Shown piece by piece: positions 5,715-54,296 of a stretch of DNA of 64,000 nucleotides (the stretch's first letter is position 1; each line of letters begins with the position of its first letter). Source of the stretch: Bosea sp. ANAM02 (GTDB lineage: Bacteria > Pseudomonadota > Alphaproteobacteria > Rhizobiales > Beijerinckiaceae); NCBI RefSeq assembly GCF_011764485.1, contig NZ_AP022848.1, positions 3,934,001 to 3,998,000 on the forward strand, written 5' to 3'. The notes beneath the pieces were generated by a model. The model searched no databases. It was given only the letters and a program-made list of their open reading frames with translations, and was not told where the DNA came from. The position numbers and the translations under genes are program-made.

Positions 5715-6698
5715 TTACGGAAGGAAGGGCGGCGTTCCCGCCAGAATGTCGCGTGCGCGGGCGCTGTCGGCATCCATCTGCACGATCAGGGCTTCCAGCG
5801 AGTCGAACTTCTCCTCGCCGCGCAGCCAGTCGACGAAGGCGACATCGACGCGCTGGCCGTAGAGATCGCCGGAGAAATCGAAGACGAAGGTTTCGAGCCG
5901 CGGCGCGCCGTCGTCGAAGGTCGGGCGGCGGCCGAAGCTCGCGACGCCGTCATGCCAGATGCCGTCGATCTTCATGCGAACCGCATAGATGCCGTGGCGC
6001 AGCTTGCAGTCGCGGGCGAGCTGCATATTGGCGGTCGGATATCCCAGCTCGCGCCCGCGCTTGTCGCCATGGGCGATCAGCCCACGCACCAGCCAGGGCC
6101 GGCCGAGGAATTCCGCGGCGCGCGCGACATCGCCTGTTTCCAGCGCCGTGCGGATCAGGGTCGAGGAAACCGGCTCGCCGTTCCAGGAATAGGGCGGCAC
6201 GACCGCCACCGGGATTCCGGCGGCGAGGCCATGGGCCTGCAGCATCTCGGGCGAGCCCGTCCGGCCCTTGCCGAAATGGAAATCGTAGCCGCAGACGAGG
6301 CCGGCGGCGCCGAGCCGGCCGATCAGCAGGTCGTCGACGAAGCTTTCGGCGGGGATCGCCGCGATCTCGCGGTCGAAGGGCAGGACGAAGACTTGGCGCA
6401 GCCCGGCATCGGCCAGCCATTCCAGCTTGAGCTGCGGCGCGGTCAGCCGGAAGACCGGCTCCTCGGGCCGGAAGACGCTGCGCGGATGCGGCTCGAAGGT
6501 GAAGGCGGCAGGCCTGCTCCCACGCTCGGCCGCAAGGGACGCGGCGCGCCGAGCGAGCTCGGCATGGCCGCGATGGACGCCGTCGAAATTGCCCAGTGCC
6601 AGCACGGCGCCGCGCAGGGCATCGGGAAGGGGCTTGTCGAGGTCGAGGACCACGGCCGTCGGCTCGGAGCGGTCAGGCGCATCGGCTTGGGATGGCAT
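5715..6698 (-). CDS. ribF: bifunctional riboflavin kinase / FAD synthetase
   Basis: 327 residues. The N-terminal nucleotidyltransferase half (about 30-190) starts with LALGNFDGVHRGH, the ATP-binding HxGH-type motif, and contains FHFGKGRTG and STLIR. The C-terminal riboflavin kinase half (about 200-325) has GRELGYPTANM and the catalytic-region segment FVFDF. It converts riboflavin to FMN and FAD. Length is typical of bacterial RibF. ATG at 6698 is preferred over the adjoining TTG. It lies 201 bases upstream of ileS on the same strand, as in many alphaproteobacteria, and may be co-transcribed with it. Confidence 0.95.
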   Translation of the reverse strand: MPSQADAPDRSEPTAVVLDLDKPLPDALRGAVLALGNFDGVHRGHAELARRAASLAAERGSRPAAFTFEPHPRSVFRPEEPVFRLTAPQLKLEWLADAGLRQVFVLPFDREIAAIPAESFVDDLLIGRLGAAGLVCGYDFHFGKGRTGSPEMLQAHGLAAGIPVAVVPPYSWNGEPVSSTLIRTALETGDVARAAEFLGRPWLVRGLIAHGDKRGRELGYPTANMQLARDCKLRHGIYAVRMKIDGIWHDGVASFGRRPTFDDGAPRLETFVFDFSGDLYGQRVDVAFVDWLRGEEKFDSLEALIVQMDADSARARDILAGTPPFLP

Positions 6699-41981: not shown

Positions 41982-42887
41982 TCACCTCGCATCCATGACG
42001 TCGCGGAGCCCGTCGCCGAGCAGGTTGAAGCCGAGCGCGACGATGCAGATGGCGATACCGGGGAAGGTCGCGACCCACCACTGGTCGAAGATCTGCTCGC
42101 GGCCGGCCGAGATCATGGCGCCCCATTCCGGCATCGGCGGCTGCGCGCCCAGCCCGAGGAAGCCGAGGCCGGCGGCGGTTAGGATGATGCCGGCCATGTC
42201 GAAGGTGGTGCGCACGATCAGCGAGGACATGCACATCGGCACGACATGCTTCCAGATGATGCGGGCCTGCGAGGCGCCCTGCAGGCGCATCGCGGCGATA
42301 TAGTCCTGGTTGCGGATCACCATGGTTTCGGCGCGGGCGACGCGGGCATAGGGCGGCCAGGTCGTGATCGCGATGGCGATGATGGCGTTGACGATACCGG
42401 GGCCGAGCGCCGCGACGAAGGCCAGCGCCAGGACGAGGCGCGGGAAGGCCAGGAAGACGTCGGTGATGCGCATAAGCAGCCGATCGACCCACCCCCCATA
42501 ATAGCCGGAGATCGCGCCGATCAGCAGGCCGAACGGGCCGACCGTGACGACGACCAGCAGCACGATCACCAGCGTGATCCGCGTGCCGTAGACGATGCGG
42601 CTGAAGATGTCGCGGCCGAGCGCGTCCGTGCCGAACCAGTTGGTCGTCGAAGGTGGCATCAGCCGCTTGTCGAGCGTCTGCGCGATCGGGTCGAAGGGCG
42701 CGATCAGGGGCGCGAAGGCTGCGATCAAGAGCAGCAGGACGATGATGGCGAGGCCCGCCACCGCCATCGGGTTGCGCTTGAAGGCGAGCCATTGCCGGTA
42801 GAGCTGGCCGAGCCGGGCCTGGCGGCGCGACTCCGGGGAGTCGCTGATCAGCCAGGCATGCAGGCCGGCGGAGGAGGTTTCGCTCAT
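41982..42887 (-). CDS. peptide-type ABC transporter permease (DppC-like)
   Basis: 301 residues with an N-terminal helix at about 41-63 and five further helices. The N-terminal OppC-type region has KRNPMAVAGL, then FGTDALGRDIFSR, and the EAA-type loop is around IAAMRLQGASQARIIWKHVVP. GAGGAGG precedes the ATG. It forms the membrane channel with the DppB-like permease, whose gene ends 10 bases before this one starts. Confidence 0.94.
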   Translation of the reverse strand: MSETSSAGLHAWLISDSPESRRQARLGQLYRQWLAFKRNPMAVAGLAIIVLLLLIAAFAPLIAPFDPIAQTLDKRLMPPSTTNWFGTDALGRDIFSRIVYGTRITLVIVLLVVVTVGPFGLLIGAISGYYGGWVDRLLMRITDVFLAFPRLVLALAFVAALGPGIVNAIIAIAITTWPPYARVARAETMVIRNQDYIAAMRLQGASQARIIWKHVVPMCMSSLIVRTTFDMAGIILTAAGLGFLGLGAQPPMPEWGAMISAGREQIFDQWWVATFPGIAICIVALGFNLLGDGLRDVMDAR

Positions 42888-42897
42888 CTGTTCCTCC

Positions 42898-43962
42898 TCA
42901 GCGCACGCGCGGGTCGGCCAGGCGGCCGATGATGTCGGTCAGCAGGTTGACCGCGATGAAGACGACGCCGACCACCAGCGTGCCGCCCAGAACCGCGTTC
43001 ATGTCGGCGTTGAGCAGAGCGTTGGTGAGATAGCGGCCCAAGCCCGGCCAGGCGAAGATCGTCTCGGTCAGCACCGAGCCCTCCAGCAAATGCATGTAGG
43101 AGAGCGCGATCACGGTGAAGAGCGGCACGGCGGCGTTGCGCAGGGCGTGGCGCCAGATCACGGCGGTCTCGGAGACGCCCTTCACACGGGCGGCGATGAC
43201 ATATTGCTGCTGCAGCTCGGTGATCATGAAGCTGCGCGTCATGCGGCTGATATAGGCAACCGAAAGCAGGCCGAGCACCAGGGCCGGCAGGATGAGATGC
43301 GAGAAGGCGTCCCAGAATGCCTCCCACTCGCCCTCCAGCGCGGCGTCGATCATGATGATGCCGGTGCGGGTGGTAACGATGTCCTGCCAGACGACCGAGA
43401 TGCGACCCGGCCCCGAGACCCAGCCGAGCTTGGCGTAGAACAGCAGGAGCGCCATCAGGCCGATCCAGAAGACCGGGACGGAATAGCCGACGAGGCCGAC
43501 AACGCGCGCGACCTGATCCTGCCAGCGGCCCTGGTTGACGGCGGCGAGGATGCCGAGCGGCACGCCGATCAGAACGCCGATCAGCGTCCCCAGCGTCGCG
43601 AGTTCCAGCGTCGCCGGGAAGACGCGCTTGATGTCCTCGACGACCGGGTTCGAGGTCAGCACGGAGGTGCCGAGATTCCCGGTGAAGACCTTGCCGATAT
43701 AAATGGCGAATTGCTGCCAGAGCGGCTTGTCGAGGCCGAGTTCGATCCGCGCCGCCTCATAGGTCTCGGGCTTGGCGTTGTCGCCGACGACGGCGAGCAC
43801 CGGGTCGATCGGGATGACGCGGGCGATGAAGAAGGTGACCAGCAGCAGGCCGAACATGGTGATGACCACGGTCGTCAATTCGCGCGAGAGCGCGCGGCCC
43901 CAGCGCCGCAGCCTGCCCGGCGCTGCCGTCTTGGTTGTGGGAGCTTGCGTCACGGCTGTCAT
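42898..43962 (-). CDS. peptide-type ABC transporter permease (DppB-like)
   Basis: 354 residues. After a 30-residue cytoplasmic tail rich in Thr and Arg, six helices are predicted. DppB-type patterns are RVIPIDPVLAVVGD and LGLDKPLWQQF, and the EAA-type loop has QQQYVIAARVKGVSETAVIWRHALRN. GGAGG precedes the ATG. It follows the binding-protein gene after 213 bases that contain a terminator-like hairpin and a repeat, so it is probably expressed by read-through. Confidence 0.94.
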   Translation of the reverse strand: MTAVTQAPTTKTAAPGRLRRWGRALSRELTTVVITMFGLLLVTFFIARVIPIDPVLAVVGDNAKPETYEAARIELGLDKPLWQQFAIYIGKVFTGNLGTSVLTSNPVVEDIKRVFPATLELATLGTLIGVLIGVPLGILAAVNQGRWQDQVARVVGLVGYSVPVFWIGLMALLLFYAKLGWVSGPGRISVVWQDIVTTRTGIIMIDAALEGEWEAFWDAFSHLILPALVLGLLSVAYISRMTRSFMITELQQQYVIAARVKGVSETAVIWRHALRNAAVPLFTVIALSYMHLLEGSVLTETIFAWPGLGRYLTNALLNADMNAVLGGTLVVGVVFIAVNLLTDIIGRLADPRVR

Positions 43963-44012
43963 GACCCGCCTCCGTTTCTAAAGATCGGTTGATTGTCACG
44001 GAACCACGGGGG

Positions 44013-44106
44013 CTCATCCCGGGCTTGACCCGGGGTCCATGTCGGAGCTTTGCCGATAACGGTTCAGGCATGGATCCCGGGTCTCCCTTCGGTCGCCCGG
44101 GATGAC
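44013..44106. repeat. intergenic palindromic repeat, 'gtcat-hairpin' type (long variant)
   Basis: CTCATCCCGGGCTTGACCCG opens and GCCCGGGATGAC closes the element, with GGTCCATG and CATGGATC between. It matches 29414-29510 in build and lies between the binding-protein and DppB-like genes. Confidence 0.75.
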
Positions 44107-44125
44107 GATGCCCTACCGCCGAAGG

Positions 44126-44160
44126 AAAGCCGCCGCGGCATCATGCTGCCGCGGCGGTTT
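44126..44160 (-). terminator. terminator-like hairpin after the binding-protein gene
   Basis: An 11-bp GC stem (44130-44140 with 44147-44157) has a 6-base loop; the minus-strand tail is CTTTCCTT, a weak T-run. It lies 16 bases after the stop. Partial termination would give more binding protein than permease. Confidence 0.6.
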
Positions 44161-44175
44161 CCGACCCTCAGGGCC

Positions 44176-45768
44176 TCAGTTCTTGACGATGGTGGCGTAG
44201 CGGTTGGTGTCCGAGCTCGGTCCGATGACCCAGCCCTTCACGTTCTTGCGCTCGGCCGAAACCTCGATCTGCTGGAACATGATGACGAAGGGCGAGACCT
44301 TCTGATGCTCGCGCTGCAGCGTCTCGTAGGTCGCCTTGCGCTTGGCGGCATCCGATTCCAGCACGGCGCCCTGCGTGACCTTGGTCATCTCGGGGATGTT
44401 CCAGGCATTGCGCCAGGCCAGCGTCTTGGACTTCGCCTCCTCGCCGTTATCCTCGTTGATGGCGAAGGTCTCGGCATTGGTATGCGGGTCGAGATAGTCC
44501 GGGCCCCACTGGCCGATATAGATGTCGTGGGCGCGGGCGCGGTACTTGGTCAGCGTCTGCTTGCCGTCGCCGGGAATGATCTCGAGCTTGACGTTGGCCT
44601 GGGCCCAGGTCGCCTGGATCGCCTGCGCGATATCCGTGATCGGGGAGACCGAGCGGGTGTCCATGGTGACGGTGAAGCCGTCGCTGAGGCCGGCCTTGGC
44701 GAGCAGTTCCTTCGCCTTGGCGACGTTGAGCGAATAGGGCTTGTCCGAGATCGCGCCGAGGAAGCCCTGCGGAAGGAAGGACTCGTGGCCCTTATAGGTG
44801 CCTTCGAGGATATTCTTCTCGATCGAGGCATAATCGACCAGGAGCTTCAGCGCCTCGCGGACCTCGGGCTTGGCCAGGTTCGGGTTCTTCTGGTTCAGGC
44901 CGAGATAGAGGATGTAGCCCTTGTCGCCCTGGACGATCTCGATGTCCTTGTTGCTCTTGACGGCCGCGAGCTGGTCCTTCGAGAGGTTGCGGGCGATGTC
45001 GACGTCGCCCTTCTCGACGAGCAGGCGCTGCGAGGCCGGCTCGGCGACATGGCGCACGACGATGCGCTTGCTCTTCGGCGCGCCCTTGTACCAGCTCTCG
45101 TTGGCGTCGAGCGTGTACTGCTCGTTCGGGCGATAGCTGCGGACCTTGAAGGCGCCGGAGCCGGCCGAGTTCAGCTTGAGCCAGCCATTGCCCCAGTCGC
45201 CGTCCTTCTCGTTGGCCTTGACCAGCTTGGAGTCGACGATCGCGGCGACGCCGGAGGTCAGGCAGTTATAGAAGAAGGTCGGGGCGAAGGGCTTGGAGAC
45301 CGTGATCTGGACGGTGTTCTCGTCGACGGCCTTGACCTTGTCGAGCACGTTCTCCGCCACGAAGCCGAACTGGCGCAGGATGAAGCCCGGCGACTTGTTC
45401 ATCGTGACCGCGCGCTGGAAGGAATAGACCACGTCGGCCGCCGTCACCGGGTTGCCGGAGTGGAACTTGACGCCTTTGCGCAGCTTGAAGGTGTAGGTCA
45501 GGTTGTCGGGAGCGACGCTCCAGCTCTCGGCGAGATCCGGGACCAGCTCGTTGTTCTTGGAAATGTCGATATTGATCAGCTTGTCGTAGACATTGGCGCC
45601 GACCTCGACACCCGAGAACTCGAAAGCCTCGGCGGGGTCGAGCGTGATGATGTCGTCGATCTGCTTGGCCATCACGATCGTGTCCTTCGGCGTCTGCGCG
45701 AAGGCGGCGGTGGTCGACATCAGGGCCGTGAAGGCCGAAACCGCCATCAATTTGGCTACGTGACGCAT
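44176..45768 (-). CDS. peptide-type ABC transporter substrate-binding protein
   Basis: 530 residues with a signal peptide (1-25, ending TTAAFA). SBP_bac_5 family: LAESWSVAPDNLTYTFKLRKGVKFHSG and the two-lobed layout are typical. It captures a peptide, opine or similar solute in the periplasm; the ligand is not readable. The ATG is fixed by GGGGA five bases upstream, while an ATG four codons earlier has no site. It is first of the five-gene operon and divergent from the amidoligase operon, 246 bases apart. Confidence 0.94.
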   Translation of the reverse strand: MRHVAKLMAVSAFTALMSTTAAFAQTPKDTIVMAKQIDDIITLDPAEAFEFSGVEVGANVYDKLINIDISKNNELVPDLAESWSVAPDNLTYTFKLRKGVKFHSGNPVTAADVVYSFQRAVTMNKSPGFILRQFGFVAENVLDKVKAVDENTVQITVSKPFAPTFFYNCLTSGVAAIVDSKLVKANEKDGDWGNGWLKLNSAGSGAFKVRSYRPNEQYTLDANESWYKGAPKSKRIVVRHVAEPASQRLLVEKGDVDIARNLSKDQLAAVKSNKDIEIVQGDKGYILYLGLNQKNPNLAKPEVREALKLLVDYASIEKNILEGTYKGHESFLPQGFLGAISDKPYSLNVAKAKELLAKAGLSDGFTVTMDTRSVSPITDIAQAIQATWAQANVKLEIIPGDGKQTLTKYRARAHDIYIGQWGPDYLDPHTNAETFAINEDNGEEAKSKTLAWRNAWNIPEMTKVTQGAVLESDAAKRKATYETLQREHQKVSPFVIMFQQIEVSAERKNVKGWVIGPSSDTNRYATIVKN

Positions 45769-46014: not shown

Positions 46015-49000
46015 TTGGCCATCATCGCCGCGCTGAACCATGTCACGCATTACCGCTACGACCGACCGGTCACGCTCGGGCCGCAGATCGTGCGCCTGCG
46101 GCCGGCCCCGCATTGCCGGGCCGCGATCGAGAGCTATTCGCTGAAGGTGACGCCGGCGCAGCATTTCGTGAACTGGCAGCAGGATCCGGCCGGCAACTGG
46201 CTGGCGCGCTATGTCTTCCCGGAGCCCGTGACGGAATTCCGGATCGAGGTCGACGTCGTCACCGAATTGTCGATCATCAACCCCTTCGATTTCTTCGTCG
46301 AGGCGCAGGCCGAGACCTTTCCCTTCAGGTACACGCCAGAGCAGACCGAGGAGCTCGCGCCCTATCTGGCGACGGAGCCGGCCGGTCCGCTGCTCGAAGC
46401 CTTCCTCGCCGAATTGCCGCGCGAGCCGATGAACACCGTCAACTTCATCGTCGACCTGAATGCCCGGCTGCAGCAGCGCATCGCCTATGGCATCCGCATG
46501 GAGCCCGGCGTGCAGGAGCCGGAGCATACGCTGGCGATCGGCTCCGGCTCCTGCCGCGACACGAGCTGGCTGCTGGTCCAGGCGCTCAGGCATCTCGGCC
46601 TCGCGGCGCGTTTCGTCTCCGGCTACCTGATCCAGATGAAGGCGGATATCGATCCGCTCGAAGGTCCGCGCGGGACGGACAAGGATTTCACCGACCTGCA
46701 TGCCTGGGCCGAGGTCTATATTCCCGGCGCCGGCTGGGTCGGGCTCGATCCGACCTCGGGGCTGCTCACCGGCGAGGGCCATCTGCCGCTGGCGGCCACC
46801 GCGCATTATCGCTCGGCCGCGCCGGTTTCGGGGCTGGCGAGCTATGCCGAGACGACCTTCGATTTCGCGATGAGCGTAACGCGCGTGCACGAGGTGCCGC
46901 GCATCACGCTGCCCTTCTCCGATGCGTCCTGGGGCGAACTCGATGCGCTCGGCGAGAAGGTCGAGGCCGATCTCAAGGCGCAGGACGTCCGCCTCACCAT
47001 GGGCGGCGAGCCGACCTTCGTCTCGATCGACGACCAGACCGGCGCGGAATGGAACATCGCCGCGGTCGGGCCGACCAAGCGCCAGCGCGCCGACACGCTG
47101 ATCCGGCGCCTGCGCGAACGCTTCGCGCCGGGCGGGATGCTGCATTACGGCCAGGGCAAATGGTATCCGGGCGAAACCCTGCCGCGCTGGGCCTTCGCCC
47201 TGTACTGGCGCCGCGACGGCGAGCCGATCTGGCGCAATGCCGACCTCATCGCCCGCGAGCCCGGCGCGCAGACCGGCGGCGACCGCGAGCTGGAAGTCGG
47301 CGCCACGATCCGCGATGCCGAGGCCCTGGCACAGGGGCTGTCCGAGAAGCTCGGGCTCGGTGCCGATTACGTGGTGCCGGCCTATGAGGATACCGGCGTC
47401 TGGCTGCTCAAGGAGGCGCAGCTTCCCGACAATGTCGATCCGCTCGATTCGCGCCTCTCCGATCCGGAGGAGCGCTCGCGGATGGCACGCGTCTTCGAGC
47501 TCGGGCTCGGCAATCCGCGCGGCTACGTCATTCCCGTGCAACGCTGGCAGGCCGGCGCCAGCGACCGGCGCTGGCGCTCGGAGAAATGGAAGCTGCGCCG
47601 CGGCAAGCTCTTTCTGGTGCCGGGCGACTCGCCGGTCGGCTATCGACTGCCGCTGGGCTCGCTGCCGGTCGTGCCCAAGGCCGAATATCCGCATATCCAT
47701 CCGCAGGACCCGCTGGAGCCGCGCCCGCCGCTGACGGCGGCAGGGCCGGCCGGAGCAAGCTGGACCGATCATCCCGAGGCGAGGCCGGCGGAGCCGTCGA
47801 CCGCGGAGGAGCGGCCCGGTCCCGCGCAGATGAGCATCGGCGCGCAGGCGGCGGGTGGCCCGGTCCAGGACCGGCGCGAGCAGGAGATCGGCGGCGATCA
47901 CGTCCGCACCGCACTCAGCCTCGAGATCCGCGACAACGTGGTCTGCGTCTTCCTGCCTCCGGTCGAGCGGCTGGAGGATTATCTCGACCTCGTCGCCTCG
48001 GTCGAGGCGGTGGCGGAGGAGCTCGGCCAGCCCGTGCATATCGAGGGTTATGCGCCGCCCTTCGACCCGCGCCTCGACGTGATCAAGGTCACGCCCGATC
48101 CCGGCGTGATCGAGGTCAATATCCACCCGGCCACGGACTGGCGCGAGGCGGCCGCGATCACGCAGGGCGTCTACGAGGAGGCACGGCTGGCGCGGCTCTG
48201 CGCCGAGAAGTTCATGGTCGACGGCCGCCATACCGGCACGGGCGGCGGTAACCATGTCGTGCTCGGTGGCGTGACGCCGGCCGACTCGCCCTTCCTGCGC
48301 CGGCCGGACCTCTTGAAGAGCATCATTCTCTACTGGAACCGGCACCCATCGCTATCATACCTGTTCTCCGGCCTGTTCATCGGCCCGACCAGCCAGGCGC
48401 CGCGCATCGACGAGGCCCGGCAGGATCAGCTCTACGAGCTGGAGATCGCGCTGGCGCAGGTGCCCAGACCCGGCGAGGCGCCGATCCCGCTCTGGCTGGT
48501 CGACCGATTGTTCCGCAACCTCCTGGTCGACGTCTCCGGCAACACGCACCGCACCGAGATCTGCATCGACAAACTCTACTCGCCGGACGGCCCGACCGGC
48601 CGGCTCGGGCTGGTCGAGTTCCGCGGCTTCGAGATGCCGCCGGATGCGCGGATGTCGCTCGCCCAGCAATTGCTGCTCAGGGCGCTGATCGCCTGGTTCT
48701 GGCGCGAGCCGCTGGACGGCAAGCTGGTCCGCTGGGGCACCACCCTGCATGATCGCTTCATGCTGCCGGAGATGGTCTGGCAGGATTTCAAGGGCGTTCT
48801 CGGCGATCTTCAGCGCGCCGGCTACGCCTTCGATCCGGTCTGGTTCGAGGCGCAGGCCGAATTCCGCTTCCCCTTCTTCGGCAAGGTCGCGCATGGCGGC
48901 GTCGAGATCGAGATCCGGCAGGCGCTGGAGCCCTGGCACGTGATGGGCGAGGAAGGCGCGATCGGCGGCACGGTGCGCTATGTCGATTCGTCGATCGAGC

Positions 49001-49416
49001 GCCTGCAGGTCAAGGCGACCGGGCTGGTGCCGGGCCGCCATCTCATCACCTGCAACGGAAGGCGCCTGCCGATGACGGCGACCGGCTTTTCGGGCGAGGC
49101 CGTCGCGGCCGTGCGCTTCAAGGCCTGGCAACCGGCGTCCGGCCTGCACCCGACGATCCCCGTGCATGCGCCGCTGACCTTCGACATCGTCGATCTCTGG
49201 TCCGGCCGTTCGCTCGGCGGCTGCGTCTACCATGTCGCCCATCCAGGGGGGCGCAATTACGAAACACCTCCCGTCAATTCCTACGAGGCGGAGGCAAGAC
49301 GGCTCGCGCGTTTCGAGGCGATCGGTCATAGTCCCGGTCCTCTGGCGATTCCGTCGGAGGAACGCAACGCCGAATTTCCGCTCACGCTGGATCTGAGGCG
49401 CCCGACGGGGGTCTAG
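46015..49416 (+). CDS. transglutaminase-like peptidase fused to DUF2126 amidoligase
   Basis: 1133 residues. The N-terminal bacterial transglutaminase N domain and core (1-290) have an intact triad: C180 ([10 protein letters not shown]), H229 (DLHAWAEVY) and D245 (GLDPTSG). The remainder (about 300-1110) is DUF2126, which Pfam lists as a putative amidoligase related to the glutamine-synthetase fold; [12 protein letters not shown] marks its start. No signal peptide is seen, so it acts in the cytoplasm. The start codon is TTG, fixed by AGGGGG just upstream and by the family's usual N-terminus ([14 protein letters not shown]). It is first of a three-gene operon, nine bases before the ATP-grasp gene. 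The product made or cleaved is unknown. Confidence 0.88.
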
Positions 49417-49424
49417 AGCGAAGA

Positions 49425-51947
49425 ATGGCGGTGCAGGGGCGCATCCGATCGGGACGCAGCAGGGCCGAGCGGCGCGCGGCGCTGCTCGCCGGCTATCGCC
49501 CGCTGCCGGGCGTCTTCGACGAGTTCATCGATGGCAACGGCCAGGTGCGCCCGCATTGGGAGCCGTTCCTGTCGGGCTGGTGCGCTCTGTCGCCCTCCGA
49601 GCTCAACCAGCGTTTCGGCCTCGCGGACCGGCATGTCCGCGATACCGGCGTGTCCTATCGCGTCCATGGCGATATCGACGAGCGCGATCCCGGCGTCGGC
49701 GAACGGGCCTGGCCCCTGTCGCATGTGCCGCTCGTCATTCCCGAGGCGGAATGGCAGACGATCGCCGCCGGCGTCTCGCAGCGCGCCGAACTGCTCTCGA
49801 CCGTGCTCGACGACATCTATGGGCCGGGCGAACTGGTCGCAGCGGGGCATCTGCCGGCCGCCGTCGTCACCGGCAGCCCCGACTACCTGCGCCCGCTTCA
49901 CGGCATCGCGGGCGGCGGCTCGCTCCAGCTCTATGCCGCCGATCTCGGACGTGGCCCCGACGGGCGCTGGTGGGTGCTGCAGGACAGGACGCAGGCGCCT
50001 TCCGGCACAGGCTATGCGCTGGAGAACCGGCTGGCGCTGGCGCGCGCCTTCCCCGACATGTTCCGCAACATGAATATCGAGCGGCTGGCGGCCTTCTTCC
50101 AGGGCTTCCGCGCCGGGCTGGTCTCGCGCTCCAGGCGCGTCGAGCCGCGCATCGCGCTGCTCACCCCCGGGTCGCTCAACGAAAGCTATTTCGAGCAGGC
50201 CTATCTCGCGCGCTATCTCGGTTTCCTGCTGGTCGAGGGTGGCGACCTGCTGATGCGCGAAGGCCGGATACATGTGCGCACCATCGCCGGCCTGAAGCGC
50301 GCCGACGTGATCTGGCGACGCATCGACGGCGATTTCGCCGATCCGCTGGAGCTCAACGCCGGCTCCGCGCTCGGCGTTGCTGGGCTGGTCGAGGCCGTGC
50401 GGCAGGGGCAAGTCCATGTCGCCAACGGGCTCGGCTCCGGCGTCGTCGAGGCCCGCGCCCTGATGGGCTTCCTGCCGGCGCTCGCCCGGCACGTGCTCGG
50501 GCAAGACCTGATCCTGCCGAATATCGCGACCTGGTGGTGCGGCCAGCCGCAGGAGCGCCAGGCCGTCCTCGACCGTCTCGGCGAGATGAGCATCGCGCCG
50601 GCCTTCCGCAGCGCCGGAAACGGGGTCGACACGACACAGGTCGTGGCCGGCGAACTGCCCGAGGCGGAGCGCGCGGCCCTGCGCGGGCGGATCGAGGCGC
50701 GCGGCATGGATTATGTCGGGCAGGAGGTCGTCCGGCTCTCGACCATGCCGGTCTTCCAGAACGGCCGGCTCGAACCGCATCCGATGACATTGCGCGTCTT
50801 CGCCGCCGCGACCCCGGACGGCTGGAAGGTGATGCCCGGCGGCTTCTGCCGCATCTCGGACGAGCCGGACGCACGTGCGGTCAGCATGCGCAACGGCGTG
50901 CGCTCCAGCGATGTCTGGGTGACTTCGGAAGAGCCGGTCGCGCAGGTCACGCTGCTGCCGACGCCGGACCGGATCAGCATCCGCCGCGTCACCGGCACAT
51001 TGCCGAGCCGGGCCGCGGACAACCTGTTCTGGCTCGGGCGCTATCTGGAACGCGGCGAGGCGATCCTGCGGCTGGTGCGCGCCCTGCTCGGCCGCCTGAT
51101 CGATCCGGACCCGGCGCCGGGACGCAACGACACCGTGCGCCAACTCGCGGGCATGCTCGTCGCCTGGGGCGCGGCTCCGGGCGGGCAGGAGAAGCGGACA
51201 CCAGCGGCTCAGGCCTATGCCGCGATCTACAGCCTCGACGATTACGGCTCCGCCGCAGCCTCGCTGCGCGAGGCACGGCGCACGGCTTCCGTCATCCGCG
51301 AGCGCCTCTCGGTCGATGCCTGGCGGCTGTTCGGCGACCTGCAGCACCAGCTCGCACCCGAGGAGGGCCGCAAGCCCAGCGAGGGCGAGGCCTATGAGAT
51401 CGCCGACCGGGCGTTGAAATCGCTCGCCGCCTTCTCCGGCCTCGGCCAGGAGAACATGGTGCGCGGCGCCGGCTGGCGCTTCCTCGATATCGGCCGACGG
51501 CTGGAGCGGGGCGTCGCAACCTGCCGCTTCGCCCGCCAGCTCGCCGACGGCAACGCCTCCGGCGACAACCTGGACGCGCTGCTCGACCTGACGGATTCGC
51601 AGATCACCTATCGCTCCCGCTACCTGCTCGGCGCCAGCCTGCAGCCGGTGCTCGATCTCGTGATGCTCGATCCCTACAACCCGCGCTCGGTCGCCTTCCA
51701 GGTCGAGCGTCTCGACACCGAGATCGCGAACCTGCCGACGCTCACCGATGACGGCATGCTGGAGGCACCGCGCCGGCTGGTGCTGCGGCTCGCCGCCGAT
51801 TGCCGGACGATGGAGGCGAGCCGGCTCGACCGGACCAGCATCCTGCTGTTCGAGCAGTTGCTGATGGGGCTCTCGGGAGCGATCGCCGACCGCTACTTCC
51901 TGCAGAACAGCGGCCCCGAAGGCTCGCGGATGACGAGCATCGCGTGA
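49425..51947 (+). CDS. circularly permuted ATP-grasp / alpha-E domain fusion
   Basis: 840 residues. Residues about 60-510 are the circularly permuted ATP-grasp type (patterns VLDDIYGPGEL, WWVLQDRTQAPSGTGYALENR, LTPGSLNESYFEQAYLAR, NAGSALGVAGLVEAVR). The helical alpha-E domain (DUF403) begins at about 527 with SRAADNLFWLGRYLERGE and runs to the end. In many genomes the two halves are separate adjacent genes; here they are joined. ATP-grasp enzymes of this group are predicted to form peptide or amide bonds. The stop overlaps the next start (GTGA). Confidence 0.9.
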   Translation: MAVQGRIRSGRSRAERRAALLAGYRPLPGVFDEFIDGNGQVRPHWEPFLSGWCALSPSELNQRFGLADRHVRDTGVSYRVHGDIDERDPGVGERAWPLSHVPLVIPEAEWQTIAAGVSQRAELLSTVLDDIYGPGELVAAGHLPAAVVTGSPDYLRPLHGIAGGGSLQLYAADLGRGPDGRWWVLQDRTQAPSGTGYALENRLALARAFPDMFRNMNIERLAAFFQGFRAGLVSRSRRVEPRIALLTPGSLNESYFEQAYLARYLGFLLVEGGDLLMREGRIHVRTIAGLKRADVIWRRIDGDFADPLELNAGSALGVAGLVEAVRQGQVHVANGLGSGVVEARALMGFLPALARHVLGQDLILPNIATWWCGQPQERQAVLDRLGEMSIAPAFRSAGNGVDTTQVVAGELPEAERAALRGRIEARGMDYVGQEVVRLSTMPVFQNGRLEPHPMTLRVFAAATPDGWKVMPGGFCRISDEPDARAVSMRNGVRSSDVWVTSEEPVAQVTLLPTPDRISIRRVTGTLPSRAADNLFWLGRYLERGEAILRLVRALLGRLIDPDPAPGRNDTVRQLAGMLVAWGAAPGGQEKRTPAAQAYAAIYSLDDYGSAAASLREARRTASVIRERLSVDAWRLFGDLQHQLAPEEGRKPSEGEAYEIADRALKSLAAFSGLGQENMVRGAGWRFLDIGRRLERGVATCRFARQLADGNASGDNLDALLDLTDSQITYRSRYLLGASLQPVLDLVMLDPYNPRSVAFQVERLDTEIANLPTLTDDGMLEAPRRLVLRLAADCRTMEASRLDRTSILLFEQLLMGLSGAIADRYFLQNSGPEGSRMTSIA

Positions 51948-52822
51948 TCTACGAGCTGCGCCACGTCACCACCTACGGCTATAGCCGGGCGGTGCCCTTT
52001 TCCCGCTGCATCCTGCGGCTTCTGCCGCGTGACGGAGCCGGCCAGCGCGTGCTGAAGAGCGAATTGCTGATCGCGCCGCGTCCGGCCGAACGCAATGACG
52101 GGCTCTGCTTCTTCGGCAACCGCATGACCACGATCACGATCACCAAGCCGCATCGCGAGCTGAAGCTCGAGATGCGCGCGCGGATCGAGGTCGACCGGCC
52201 GCCACCGCCCCATGCCGGGCTGACGCGGGGCTGGGAGGAGGTCGCGGCGCTGGCGCTCGACTCCCGCAGCCTGGCTCCGGATTCGCCGGCTCATCACCTT
52301 TATCCGAGCCGGCTCGTGCCGCATGTCCCGGCCGTGATCGACTATGCGCGGTCGAGCTTCGAGGCGAGGCGCCCCGTGTTGGAGGCGGCCTGCGAGCTGA
52401 TGGCCCGGATCAGGCGCGACTTCACCTACGACCCCGAGGCGACCGAGGTGACGACGCCATTGGCCGAGGCCTTCGCCCAGCGCCACGGCGTCTGCCAGGA
52501 TTTCGCGCATATCATGATCGCCGGGCTCAGGGGGCTCGGCCTGCCGGCGGCCTACGTTTCCGGCTATATCCGCACCATCCCGCCACCGGGGCAGAAGCGG
52601 CTCGAGGGCGCCGATGCCAGCCATGCCTGGGCGATGCTGTGGTGCGGGCCGGAGATCGGCTGGGTCGGGCTCGACCCGACCAATGACCTGATCGTCGCGG
52701 ACGACCATATCGTCACCGCCTTCGGTCGCGACTATGCCGATGTCGCCCCGCTCGACGGCGTGGTGATCGGTCCGGGCACGCAGAAGGTCGGCGTCGCCGT
52801 GGACGTGGTGCCGGTCGGCTGA
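51944..52822 (+). CDS. transglutaminase-like cysteine peptidase
   Basis: 292 residues, a bacterial transglutaminase N domain (1-110) plus catalytic core with the triad C184 (HGVCQDFAH), H227 (ASHAWAML) and D244 (GLDPTND). Proteins of this group are predicted peptidases more than cross-linking enzymes. There is no signal peptide. The GTG start overlaps the ATP-grasp stop codon by GTGA, so translation is coupled. Last gene of the operon; the convergent HxlR gene follows after four bases. Confidence 0.9.
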   Translation: MIYELRHVTTYGYSRAVPFSRCILRLLPRDGAGQRVLKSELLIAPRPAERNDGLCFFGNRMTTITITKPHRELKLEMRARIEVDRPPPPHAGLTRGWEEVAALALDSRSLAPDSPAHHLYPSRLVPHVPAVIDYARSSFEARRPVLEAACELMARIRRDFTYDPEATEVTTPLAEAFAQRHGVCQDFAHIMIAGLRGLGLPAAYVSGYIRTIPPPGQKRLEGADASHAWAMLWCGPEIGWVGLDPTNDLIVADDHIVTAFGRDYADVAPLDGVVIGPGTQKVGVAVDVVPVG

Positions 52823-52826
52823 GCCC

Positions 52827-53183
52827 TCAGGCTGCCGCCTCCGCCGCCTGCGGCGAGCGGGCATGCGTCTCGCCCCAGTTCTTCAGCGCCATGATCACCG
52901 GCTCCAGCGTCCGCCCTTTTACCGACAGGCTGTATTCCACCCGCGGCGGCACTTCCGGATAGACGACCCGCACGATCAGGCCGTCCGCCTCCAGCTCGCG
53001 CAACTGCGTCGTCAGCATGCGCTGGGTGACGCCGGGAATGCGCCGGCGGATCTCGTTGAAGCGCAAGGTGCCGCCCATCAGGTGATAGAGCGCAATACCT
53101 TTCCACTTGCCGCCGATCAGGCCGAGTGCCGCCTCGACAGGGCAGCCGGCAGAGCAATAGGGCTCCTGGAAGCGCGGCGGCAT
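52827..53183 (-). CDS. HxlR-family winged-helix regulator
   Basis: 118 residues. HxlR core: CPVEAALGLIGGKWKGIALYHL, LRFNEIRRRIPGVTQRMLTTQLRELEADGLI and the wing VEYSLSVKGRTL. C10 and C14 near the N-terminus fall where HxlR members such as YodB and HypR carry redox-sensing cysteines. AAGGA precedes the ATG. The gene is divergent from a zinc-type dehydrogenase/quinone-reductase-like gene, 99 bases apart, a usual pairing for electrophile-sensing HxlR proteins. Confidence 0.92.
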   Translation of the reverse strand: MPPRFQEPYCSAGCPVEAALGLIGGKWKGIALYHLMGGTLRFNEIRRRIPGVTQRMLTTQLRELEADGLIVRVVYPEVPPRVEYSLSVKGRTLEPVIMALKNWGETHARSPQAAEAAA

Positions 53184-53282
53184 GACGGTATCCTTTTCGA
53201 CACTATCGGCTGAAATTGTGCGTTCTTGCGCGATCTGAAGGTTATGCGCATCTCGGCTGCATCGCAATGCAGGAGAGACGCC

Positions 53283-54296
53283 ATGCGCGCCGTCGGATAC
53301 CGCCAGTCGCAACCCATAATCGCCGAGACCAGTCTGATCGATCTCGACGTGCCCGAGCCGAAGGCCGCCGGGCGCGACCTCCTGGTCGAGGTCAAGGCCG
53401 TCTCGGTCAACCCGGTCGACACCAAGATCCGCGTCCGCAGCCAGCCGGCGGAAGGTGAGGCCAGCGTGCTCGGCTGGGATGCCGCCGGCATCGTCAGGGC
53501 GGTGGGCCCGGAGGTGACCGGCTTCAGGCCGGGCGATGCCGTATTCTATGCCGGAGCCATCGACCGGCCGGGCTCGAATGCGGAATTCCACCTCGTCGAC
53601 GAGCGCATCGTCGGACCGAAGCCGAAGAGCCTGGGCTTCGCGGAGGCGGCGGCGCTGCCGCTGACCGCCATCACCGCCTGGGAAATGCTGTTCGACCGGC
53701 TCGACATCCGCAGGCCCGTGCCGGGCGCGGCGCACGCGCTCTTGATCATCGGTGGCGCGGGCGGCGTCGGCTCGATCGCGATCCAGCTCGCGCGCCGGCT
53801 CAGCGACGTCGCGGTGATCGCCACCGCCTCGCGGCCGGAGACCCGGCTCTGGGCGCAGGAGCTCGGCGCCCATCATGTCATCGACCACACGAAACCGCTG
53901 GCCGAGCAGGTCGCCGCGCTCGGCATCGGCGCGCCGGCCTTCGTGTTCTCGACGACGCATACCGACACCCATCTGGAGGGCATCGTCGAACTCATGGCGC
54001 CGCAGGGGCGCTTCGGCCTGATCGACGACCCGAAGGTGCTCGACGCCAACCCGCTGAAGCGCAAGAGCCTGTCGCTGCATTGGGAGCTGATGTTCACGCG
54101 CTCGCTGTTCAAGACGGCGGACATGGGCGAGCAGGGCAGGCTCCTGGCCGAGGTCTCGCGATTGGTCGATGCGGATCAGATCCGCACGACGCTGGCCGAG
54201 CATTTCGGCACGATCAGCGCCGCCAACCTCAAGCGGGCCCACACCCTGATCGAGAGCAACCGCGCCAAGGGCAAGATCGTGCTCGAAGGGTTCTGA
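53283..54296 (+). CDS. MDR-superfamily dehydrogenase (zinc-binding alcohol dehydrogenase family-like)
   Basis: 337 residues. GroES-like N-terminal domain (AVSVNPVDTKIR) followed by a Rossmann domain with IGGAGGVGSIAIQLARRL (about 155-172). It matches TIGR02817-type proteins, which resemble quinone oxidoreductases; the catalytic zinc ligands of true alcohol dehydrogenases are not present, so NAD(P)H-dependent reduction of quinones or enals is more likely. AGGAGAG precedes the ATG. Regulation by the divergent HxlR protein is inferred. Confidence 0.88.
   Translation: MRAVGYRQSQPIIAETSLIDLDVPEPKAAGRDLLVEVKAVSVNPVDTKIRVRSQPAEGEASVLGWDAAGIVRAVGPEVTGFRPGDAVFYAGAIDRPGSNAEFHLVDERIVGPKPKSLGFAEAAALPLTAITAWEMLFDRLDIRRPVPGAAHALLIIGGAGGVGSIAIQLARRLSDVAVIATASRPETRLWAQELGAHHVIDHTKPLAEQVAALGIGAPAFVFSTTHTDTHLEGIVELMAPQGRFGLIDDPKVLDANPLKRKSLSLHWELMFTRSLFKTADMGEQGRLLAEVSRLVDADQIRTTLAEHFGTISAANLKRAHTLIESNRAKGKIVLEGF

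Follow-up and report, generated by a model that had tools for sequence, protein, structure and literature searches.

A transglutaminase/amidoligase operon of Bosea sp. ANAM02 with one predicted ligase and one probable pseudo-ligase

Which members of a bacterial gene cluster predicted to make and break amide bonds are actually catalytic, and do they act by themselves? This question is raised by a three-gene operon (genes A, B and C) in a stretch of 64,000 nucleotides from Bosea sp. ANAM02 (contig NZ_AP022848.1, positions 3,934,001 to 3,998,000; the whole stretch is called the window below), in which gene A encodes a transglutaminase (TGase)/DUF2126 fusion, gene B a fusion of a circularly permuted ATP-grasp with an alpha-E domain, and gene C another TGase-like protein. 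We find that gene B is very probably a pseudo-ligase, because gene B, and largely also its fused relatives, have lost the ExN motif that binds Mg2+, the two ATP-phosphate lysines and the Gly-rich loop, and that DUF2126 is the operon's only likely intact ligase. In our leading account, held with moderate confidence, the operon belongs to a two-locus system for peptide ligation and hydrolysis in which gene B is a non-catalytic partner and which may be nitrogen-regulated. DUF2126 is frequent (71 of 249 sampled genomes of the phylum). Should gene B prove to be a pseudo-ligase, its ATP-grasp would be silent in assays for a trivial reason, and reconstituting the system would take the DUF2126 protein together with a distant standalone ATP-grasp; the question is therefore directly testable, with the clean prediction that two paralogues occurring in the same genomes are split at the level of residues.

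The gene order, the domain assignments and the two junctions (a gap of 8 bases between A and B, and an overlap of 4 bases, GTGA, between B and C) agree, in Pfam matches and in the sequence itself, with a first-pass annotation of this DNA. Gene A starts with TTG, preceded 6 bases upstream by AGGGGG, and encodes 1133 amino acids; gene B (ATG start) and gene C (GTG start) encode 840 and 292 amino acids, and NCBIfam returned no family for any of the three proteins. The earlier view that none carries a signal peptide is in line with hydropathy, as no signal-like N-terminus was seen in the three proteins (mean Kyte-Doolittle value at most 0.57 in 19-residue windows starting within the first 60 residues). 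The features are as follows.

46015-49416, + strand: gene A, TGase-like domain plus DUF2126 (candidate glutamine synthetase-like amidoligase)
46423-46752, + strand: Transglut_core of gene A (Pfam, residues 137-246, preceded by Bact_transglu_N at 7-82), triad C180/H229/D245 invariant in 61/61 sequences
46846-49398, + strand: DUF2126 domain of gene A (Pfam, residues 278-1128, 1331 bits)
49425-51947, + strand: gene B, circularly permuted ATP-grasp plus alpha-E, predicted pseudo-ligase (Pfam, residue alignments)
49728-50855, + strand: CP_ATPgrasp_2 domain of gene B (Pfam, residues 102-477; CP_ATPgrasp_1 also matched)
49980-49988, + strand: lost Mg2+-binding ExN motif, Q186-D187-R188 replacing E-D-N (alignment)
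50454-50456, + strand: R344 replacing the first ATP-phosphate lysine (alignment)
50595-50636, + strand: A391 replacing the second lysine, with a degenerate Gly-rich loop at residues 391-404 (alignment)
51000-51899, + strand: Alpha-E domain of gene B (Pfam, residues 526-825)
51944-52822, + strand: gene C, TGase-like (both TGase domains in Pfam), triad C184/H227/D244

The case against catalysis by gene B, which has the ATP-grasp fold, rests on a comparison with standalone ATP-grasps: its residues Q186, R188, R344 and A391 align with E156, N158, K317 and K364 of a standalone paralogue. Many positions invariant among standalone proteins were already lost among the fused ones in a first alignment (56 fused and 29 standalone ATP-grasps). 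The final alignment holds 63 fused proteins, gene B included, and 63 standalone ones, from which duplicates, ATP-grasp scores not above 110 and aligned spans shorter than 380 residues had been removed. In all 63 standalone proteins E156, N158, K317, K364, G370, G371, Y372 and G373 are invariant. The fused proteins have G, S or A at the E156 site (56/63) and R or H at the N158 site (57/63), and are scattered at the two lysine sites and in the Gly-rich loop; 50 of them keep none of the four residues E156, N158, K317 and K364, 13 keep one, and not a single one keeps more. A second set of 72 fused domains from named genomes, passed through the same length filter, behaves likewise (69 keep none, 3 keep one). 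A lysine followed by SGGYG occurs in 59/63 standalone proteins vs 0/63 fused ones, and no invariant or near-invariant column is found between residues 374 and 438 in 23 fused proteins, so the loss of residues is independent of how the loop is aligned. Residue equivalence was taken from sequence alignment; the VIA-align and Foldseek comparisons speak for the fold level. Searching the PDB with a profile of the standalone proteins returned, apart from one chance match, only 3n6x, a "putative glutathionylspermidine synthase" of Methylobacillus flagellatus, which keeps VVKE..GSGGYG and LEDN, whereas gene B has neither.

Selection for a non-catalytic role would fit these data better than decay of the gene, since the fused proteins form one clade (support 1.0, branch of 0.94 substitutions per site), retain 65 columns conserved at 90% or more (157 in the standalone set) and have exchanged one conserved residue for another at four positions. 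The alpha-E fusion is present in 63/63 proteins of the gene B type; gene B has its closest named relatives in Bosea, with 96% identity to a protein from Bosea beijingensis. Of the two peptide ligases that the first-pass annotation had predicted, the ATP-grasp thus falls, as the absence of ATP-binding residues, which that annotation itself had named as fatal, is what the four replaced residues and the Gly-rich loop of gene B display. DUF2126 remains a candidate ligase, as far as conservation tells: its residues are strongly conserved across 61 sequences (frames longer than 1000 amino acids only), and the predicted model has a glutamine synthetase-like fold. The TGase/DUF2126 fusion was seen in 60/60 fetched loci.

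Both TGase-fold domains of the operon carry the Cys-His-Asp triad of the transglutaminase-like superfamily at exactly the residues given earlier. Cys and His are kept in 65/65 gene-C-type and 61/61 gene-A-type domains, and Asp in 64/65 (with one gap) and 61/61, respectively.

Iyer et al. 2009 reportedly described amidoligase/peptidase gene sets that combine a circularly permuted ATP-grasp, a glutamine synthetase-like ligase, alpha-E and a TGase, often with Anbu; we know of no product for them. The operon brings DUF2126 together with a circularly permuted ATP-grasp, alpha-E and TGase genes, the same domains in the same clustering, which supports the membership proposed in the first-pass annotation. 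It differs from them in that its fused ATP-grasp is without catalytic residues and no Anbu is adjacent.

The same genome, with one DUF2126 and two alpha-E genes, carries a second set. The other alpha-E gene lies in a complete Anbu operon (C1, 2.284-2.288 Mb), 1.7 Mb from the gene A-B-C operon, encoding an ATP-grasp of 471 amino acids, an alpha-E protein of 313, a TGase of 275 and a protein of 249 amino acids. Pfam gave no match for the last one, which we take to be a putative member of the Anbu family, with a gene order like that in PMC6376114. ATP-grasp, alpha-E and TGase are homologous to those of the gene A-B-C operon (ATP-grasp 32% and alpha-E 27% identical to gene B). The Anbu operon differs in that ATP-grasp and alpha-E are separate genes, all four key residues are kept by its standalone ATP-grasp and DUF2126 is missing; conversely, no Anbu is found among the genes of the A-B-C operon. 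The first-pass annotation had suggested that the fusions limit which partners must act together. The fusions are however the norm of the family, and they do not confine the partners to the operon, because the unlinked set provides a residue-keeping ATP-grasp, an alpha-E protein and Anbu. For a standalone ATP-grasp of Y. bercovieri, release of phosphate from ATP is described in the excerpt of PMC6376114, where no activity of Anbu was detected.

The TGase of the Anbu operon (5809-6636 of locus L004) has by alignment no catalytic Cys. It was matched in 41/41 genomes of the genus, and in the 30 loci that were read Cys is replaced by Ala or Pro (30/30), with His and Asp kept (30/30). In another set of 29 rows, two of which belong to one genome, 24 keep Cys. 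The TGases of the DUF2126 operon might make up for the lost Cys: the rows without it come from four genomes, all with DUF2126, and Cys is kept in the six rows whose genomes have no DUF2126, too few to tell. A Bosea genome (G250, locus L220, one of the 30 loci read) has no DUF2126 match, yet there too the Cys is lost.

The distribution of these genes was examined next to their arrangement. The order A-B-C is kept in 71/80 named relatives (seven have A alone and two A-B, some at contig ends), so the gene set is more than a chance association, and the conserved order whose loss the first-pass annotation would have taken as a refutation is found. Within Bosea, 40/41 genomes match DUF2126. Among the 249 phylum genomes, DUF2126 was matched in 71 (spanning 23 families by taxonomic labels), a standalone ATP-grasp, defined by a score of 450 bits or more, in 131, and Anbu in 85. 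All 71 genomes with DUF2126 have a standalone ATP-grasp match, vs 60/178 of the others (Fisher p 5e-26, shared ancestry being ignored). In the 60 DUF2126 loci fetched from the 71 genomes, 55 fused ATP-grasp/alpha-E proteins were found nearby, and in 30/60, two of them cut, a standalone-type ATP-grasp lies within about 8 kb. For G149, a genome of 74% completeness, the sole match is a weaker one (E 2.5e-63), and in G069 a third, more distant ATP-grasp paralogue was noticed (C1:12244-13632, frame of 485 amino acids, 40% identity to the standalone query).

The operon could thus represent one half of a cytoplasmic system for peptide or amide ligation and hydrolysis. For DUF2126 of gene A, ATP-dependent formation of an amide bond is predicted, while the TGase-fold domain fused to it may cleave or transfer such a bond, and gene C would contribute another intact enzyme of the TGase fold. 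Gene B has retained the fold without the ATP/Mg2+ machinery and probably serves as a scaffold, or as a partner that holds the substrate or has a regulatory role. The ATP-grasp that does the catalysis would be supplied from 1.7 Mb away, along with the standalone alpha-E, the Cys-less TGase and Anbu; the ligated bond would be broken or transferred by TGase-fold enzymes, often with Anbu too. That both loci serve a single pathway, likely induced by nitrogen limitation, is close to an even call, falling slightly short of it. More tentatively still, a dedicated pseudo-ATP-grasp/alpha-E subunit might act in trans with the standalone ATP-grasp/alpha-E pair, so that glutamine synthetase-like and ATP-grasp ligases cooperate on one peptide or tag that TGase-fold enzymes, often with Anbu, undo. 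A comparable system is the Pseudomonas rlo operon, for which the excerpt of PMC12239564 gives genetic evidence that RloA (protease), RloB (inactive TGase) and RloC (ATP-grasp) act in one process. That operon likewise contains a dead homologue besides a protease and a candidate peptide ligase; its ligase is however of another subfamily, and its inactive member is a membrane-bound TGase instead of an ATP-grasp.

Several observations weigh against a two-locus system with an inactive gene B. The gene A model is moderate (predicted local distance difference test score, pLDDT, 72), and the profile comparison of DUF2126 with glutamine synthetase (hhalign) is not significant (E 0.05-0.7), which makes any equivalence of its metal and ATP residues to those of glutamine synthetase tentative. 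In 11 of the 13 fused proteins with one key residue that residue is K364, and a loose GG.G after K/R is present in 4/63 fused vs 63/63 standalone proteins. The mapping of residues onto GspS/TryS relies on a motif match with a non-significant hhalign score, plus fold, and one source behind it is a modelling paper; neither did the ATP-grasp sets score significantly when aligned by hhalign with GspS relatives. Pull-downs with Anbu-operon proteins yielded no specific complex (PMC6376114, excerpt). Shared ancestry keeps the co-occurrence counts from being independent, and the reading of active-site residues covered 63 standalone proteins rather than every one of the 71 genomes; one genome, G217, has a standalone ATP-grasp (C1:4723580-4724987) that is split close to the C-terminus. 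As judged by match numbers and follow-up, no fused protein is among the matches listed in 6/71 DUF2126 genomes (G036, G049, G064, G076, G097 and G212, with G049 and G097 being fragmented assemblies), and at least eight genomes (L170-L177) have a fused protein without DUF2126. The parts of the operon are therefore not strictly obligate to each other. Six of these DUF2126-less loci have an adjacent gene-C-type TGase, one (G126) has a TGase together with the standalone pair, and for another (G114) none was seen nearby. A literature search, with Iyer et al. 2009 outside its reach, returned no mention of DUF2126 and no wording for an inactive ATP-grasp.

Alternatively, the operon may be self-sufficient, with DUF2126 ligating, the two TGases cleaving and gene B as an accessory, and with the Anbu-type locus sharing merely its ancestry and host range; we regard this as rather unlikely. 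It is in line with the two sets standing apart in Bosea as well as in each of the 20 further loci of the same order that were fetched, which also counts against a joint system, and with Anbu having a match in 42 of the 71 DUF2126 genomes and none in 29, with no DUF2126-Anbu association among standalone-positive genomes (p 0.36). Anbu as an obligate partner was rejected on the same 29/71. Against self-sufficiency stand the match to a standalone ATP-grasp in every DUF2126 genome and the two sets being neighbours in half of the fetched loci.

Still less likely is that the operon has two active ligases, gene B using other residues of a remodelled pocket as in the R2K/CDC123 clade. As described in the excerpt of PMC4431377, R2K ATP-grasps are without the usual loop motif and linker lysine, for which another Lys/Arg is argued to compensate. 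The fused proteins do keep D143 or E, R172 and R426 (each 63/63), and Arg is common at the N158 site (44/63, and 69/72 in the second set). The same excerpt, however, gives R2K a strand-2 lysine that is absolutely conserved, together with either ExN or ExGD as a motif, neither of which the fused proteins keep, and no invariant Lys occurs in the variable loop region of 23 fused proteins. As a leading view, two active ligases were rejected because of the loss of residues among the fused proteins.

The two-locus reading includes a possible link to nitrogen. A Burkholderia cenocepacia H111 cluster with genes for DUF404/407, DUF403, a TGase and a "large protein containing transglutaminase-like domain" is listed as NtrC- and sigma54-dependent, with table values of -6.0 to -9.4 in the ntrC mutant (PMC5491218, excerpt); we infer that the large protein contains DUF2126. 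Anbu is up in nitrogen-limited Pseudomonas putida according to excerpts of PMC5666114 and PMC6376114. A point against such regulation in Bosea is that a scan with one consensus, allowing at most two mismatches, found no sigma54-like site upstream of gene A (the window as a whole has 4 matches vs 8.6 expected by chance). A sigma54 promoter before gene A was accordingly dropped, which leaves other nitrogen regulators unaddressed.

A family-5 substrate-binding protein (SBP) gene and two Opp-type permease genes lie at 41982-45768 (- strand), divergent from gene A. That the operon serves peptide uptake with this SBP_bac_5/OppBC transporter is highly improbable, and the pairing was rejected, as an SBP relative is near DUF2126 in 4/80 named loci and none is listed above 40 bits in the 60 phylum loci. 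Directly downstream of the operon, a gene for an HxlR-type regulator (52827-53192, - strand) is divergent from one for a zinc-type alcohol dehydrogenase (53226-54296, + strand).
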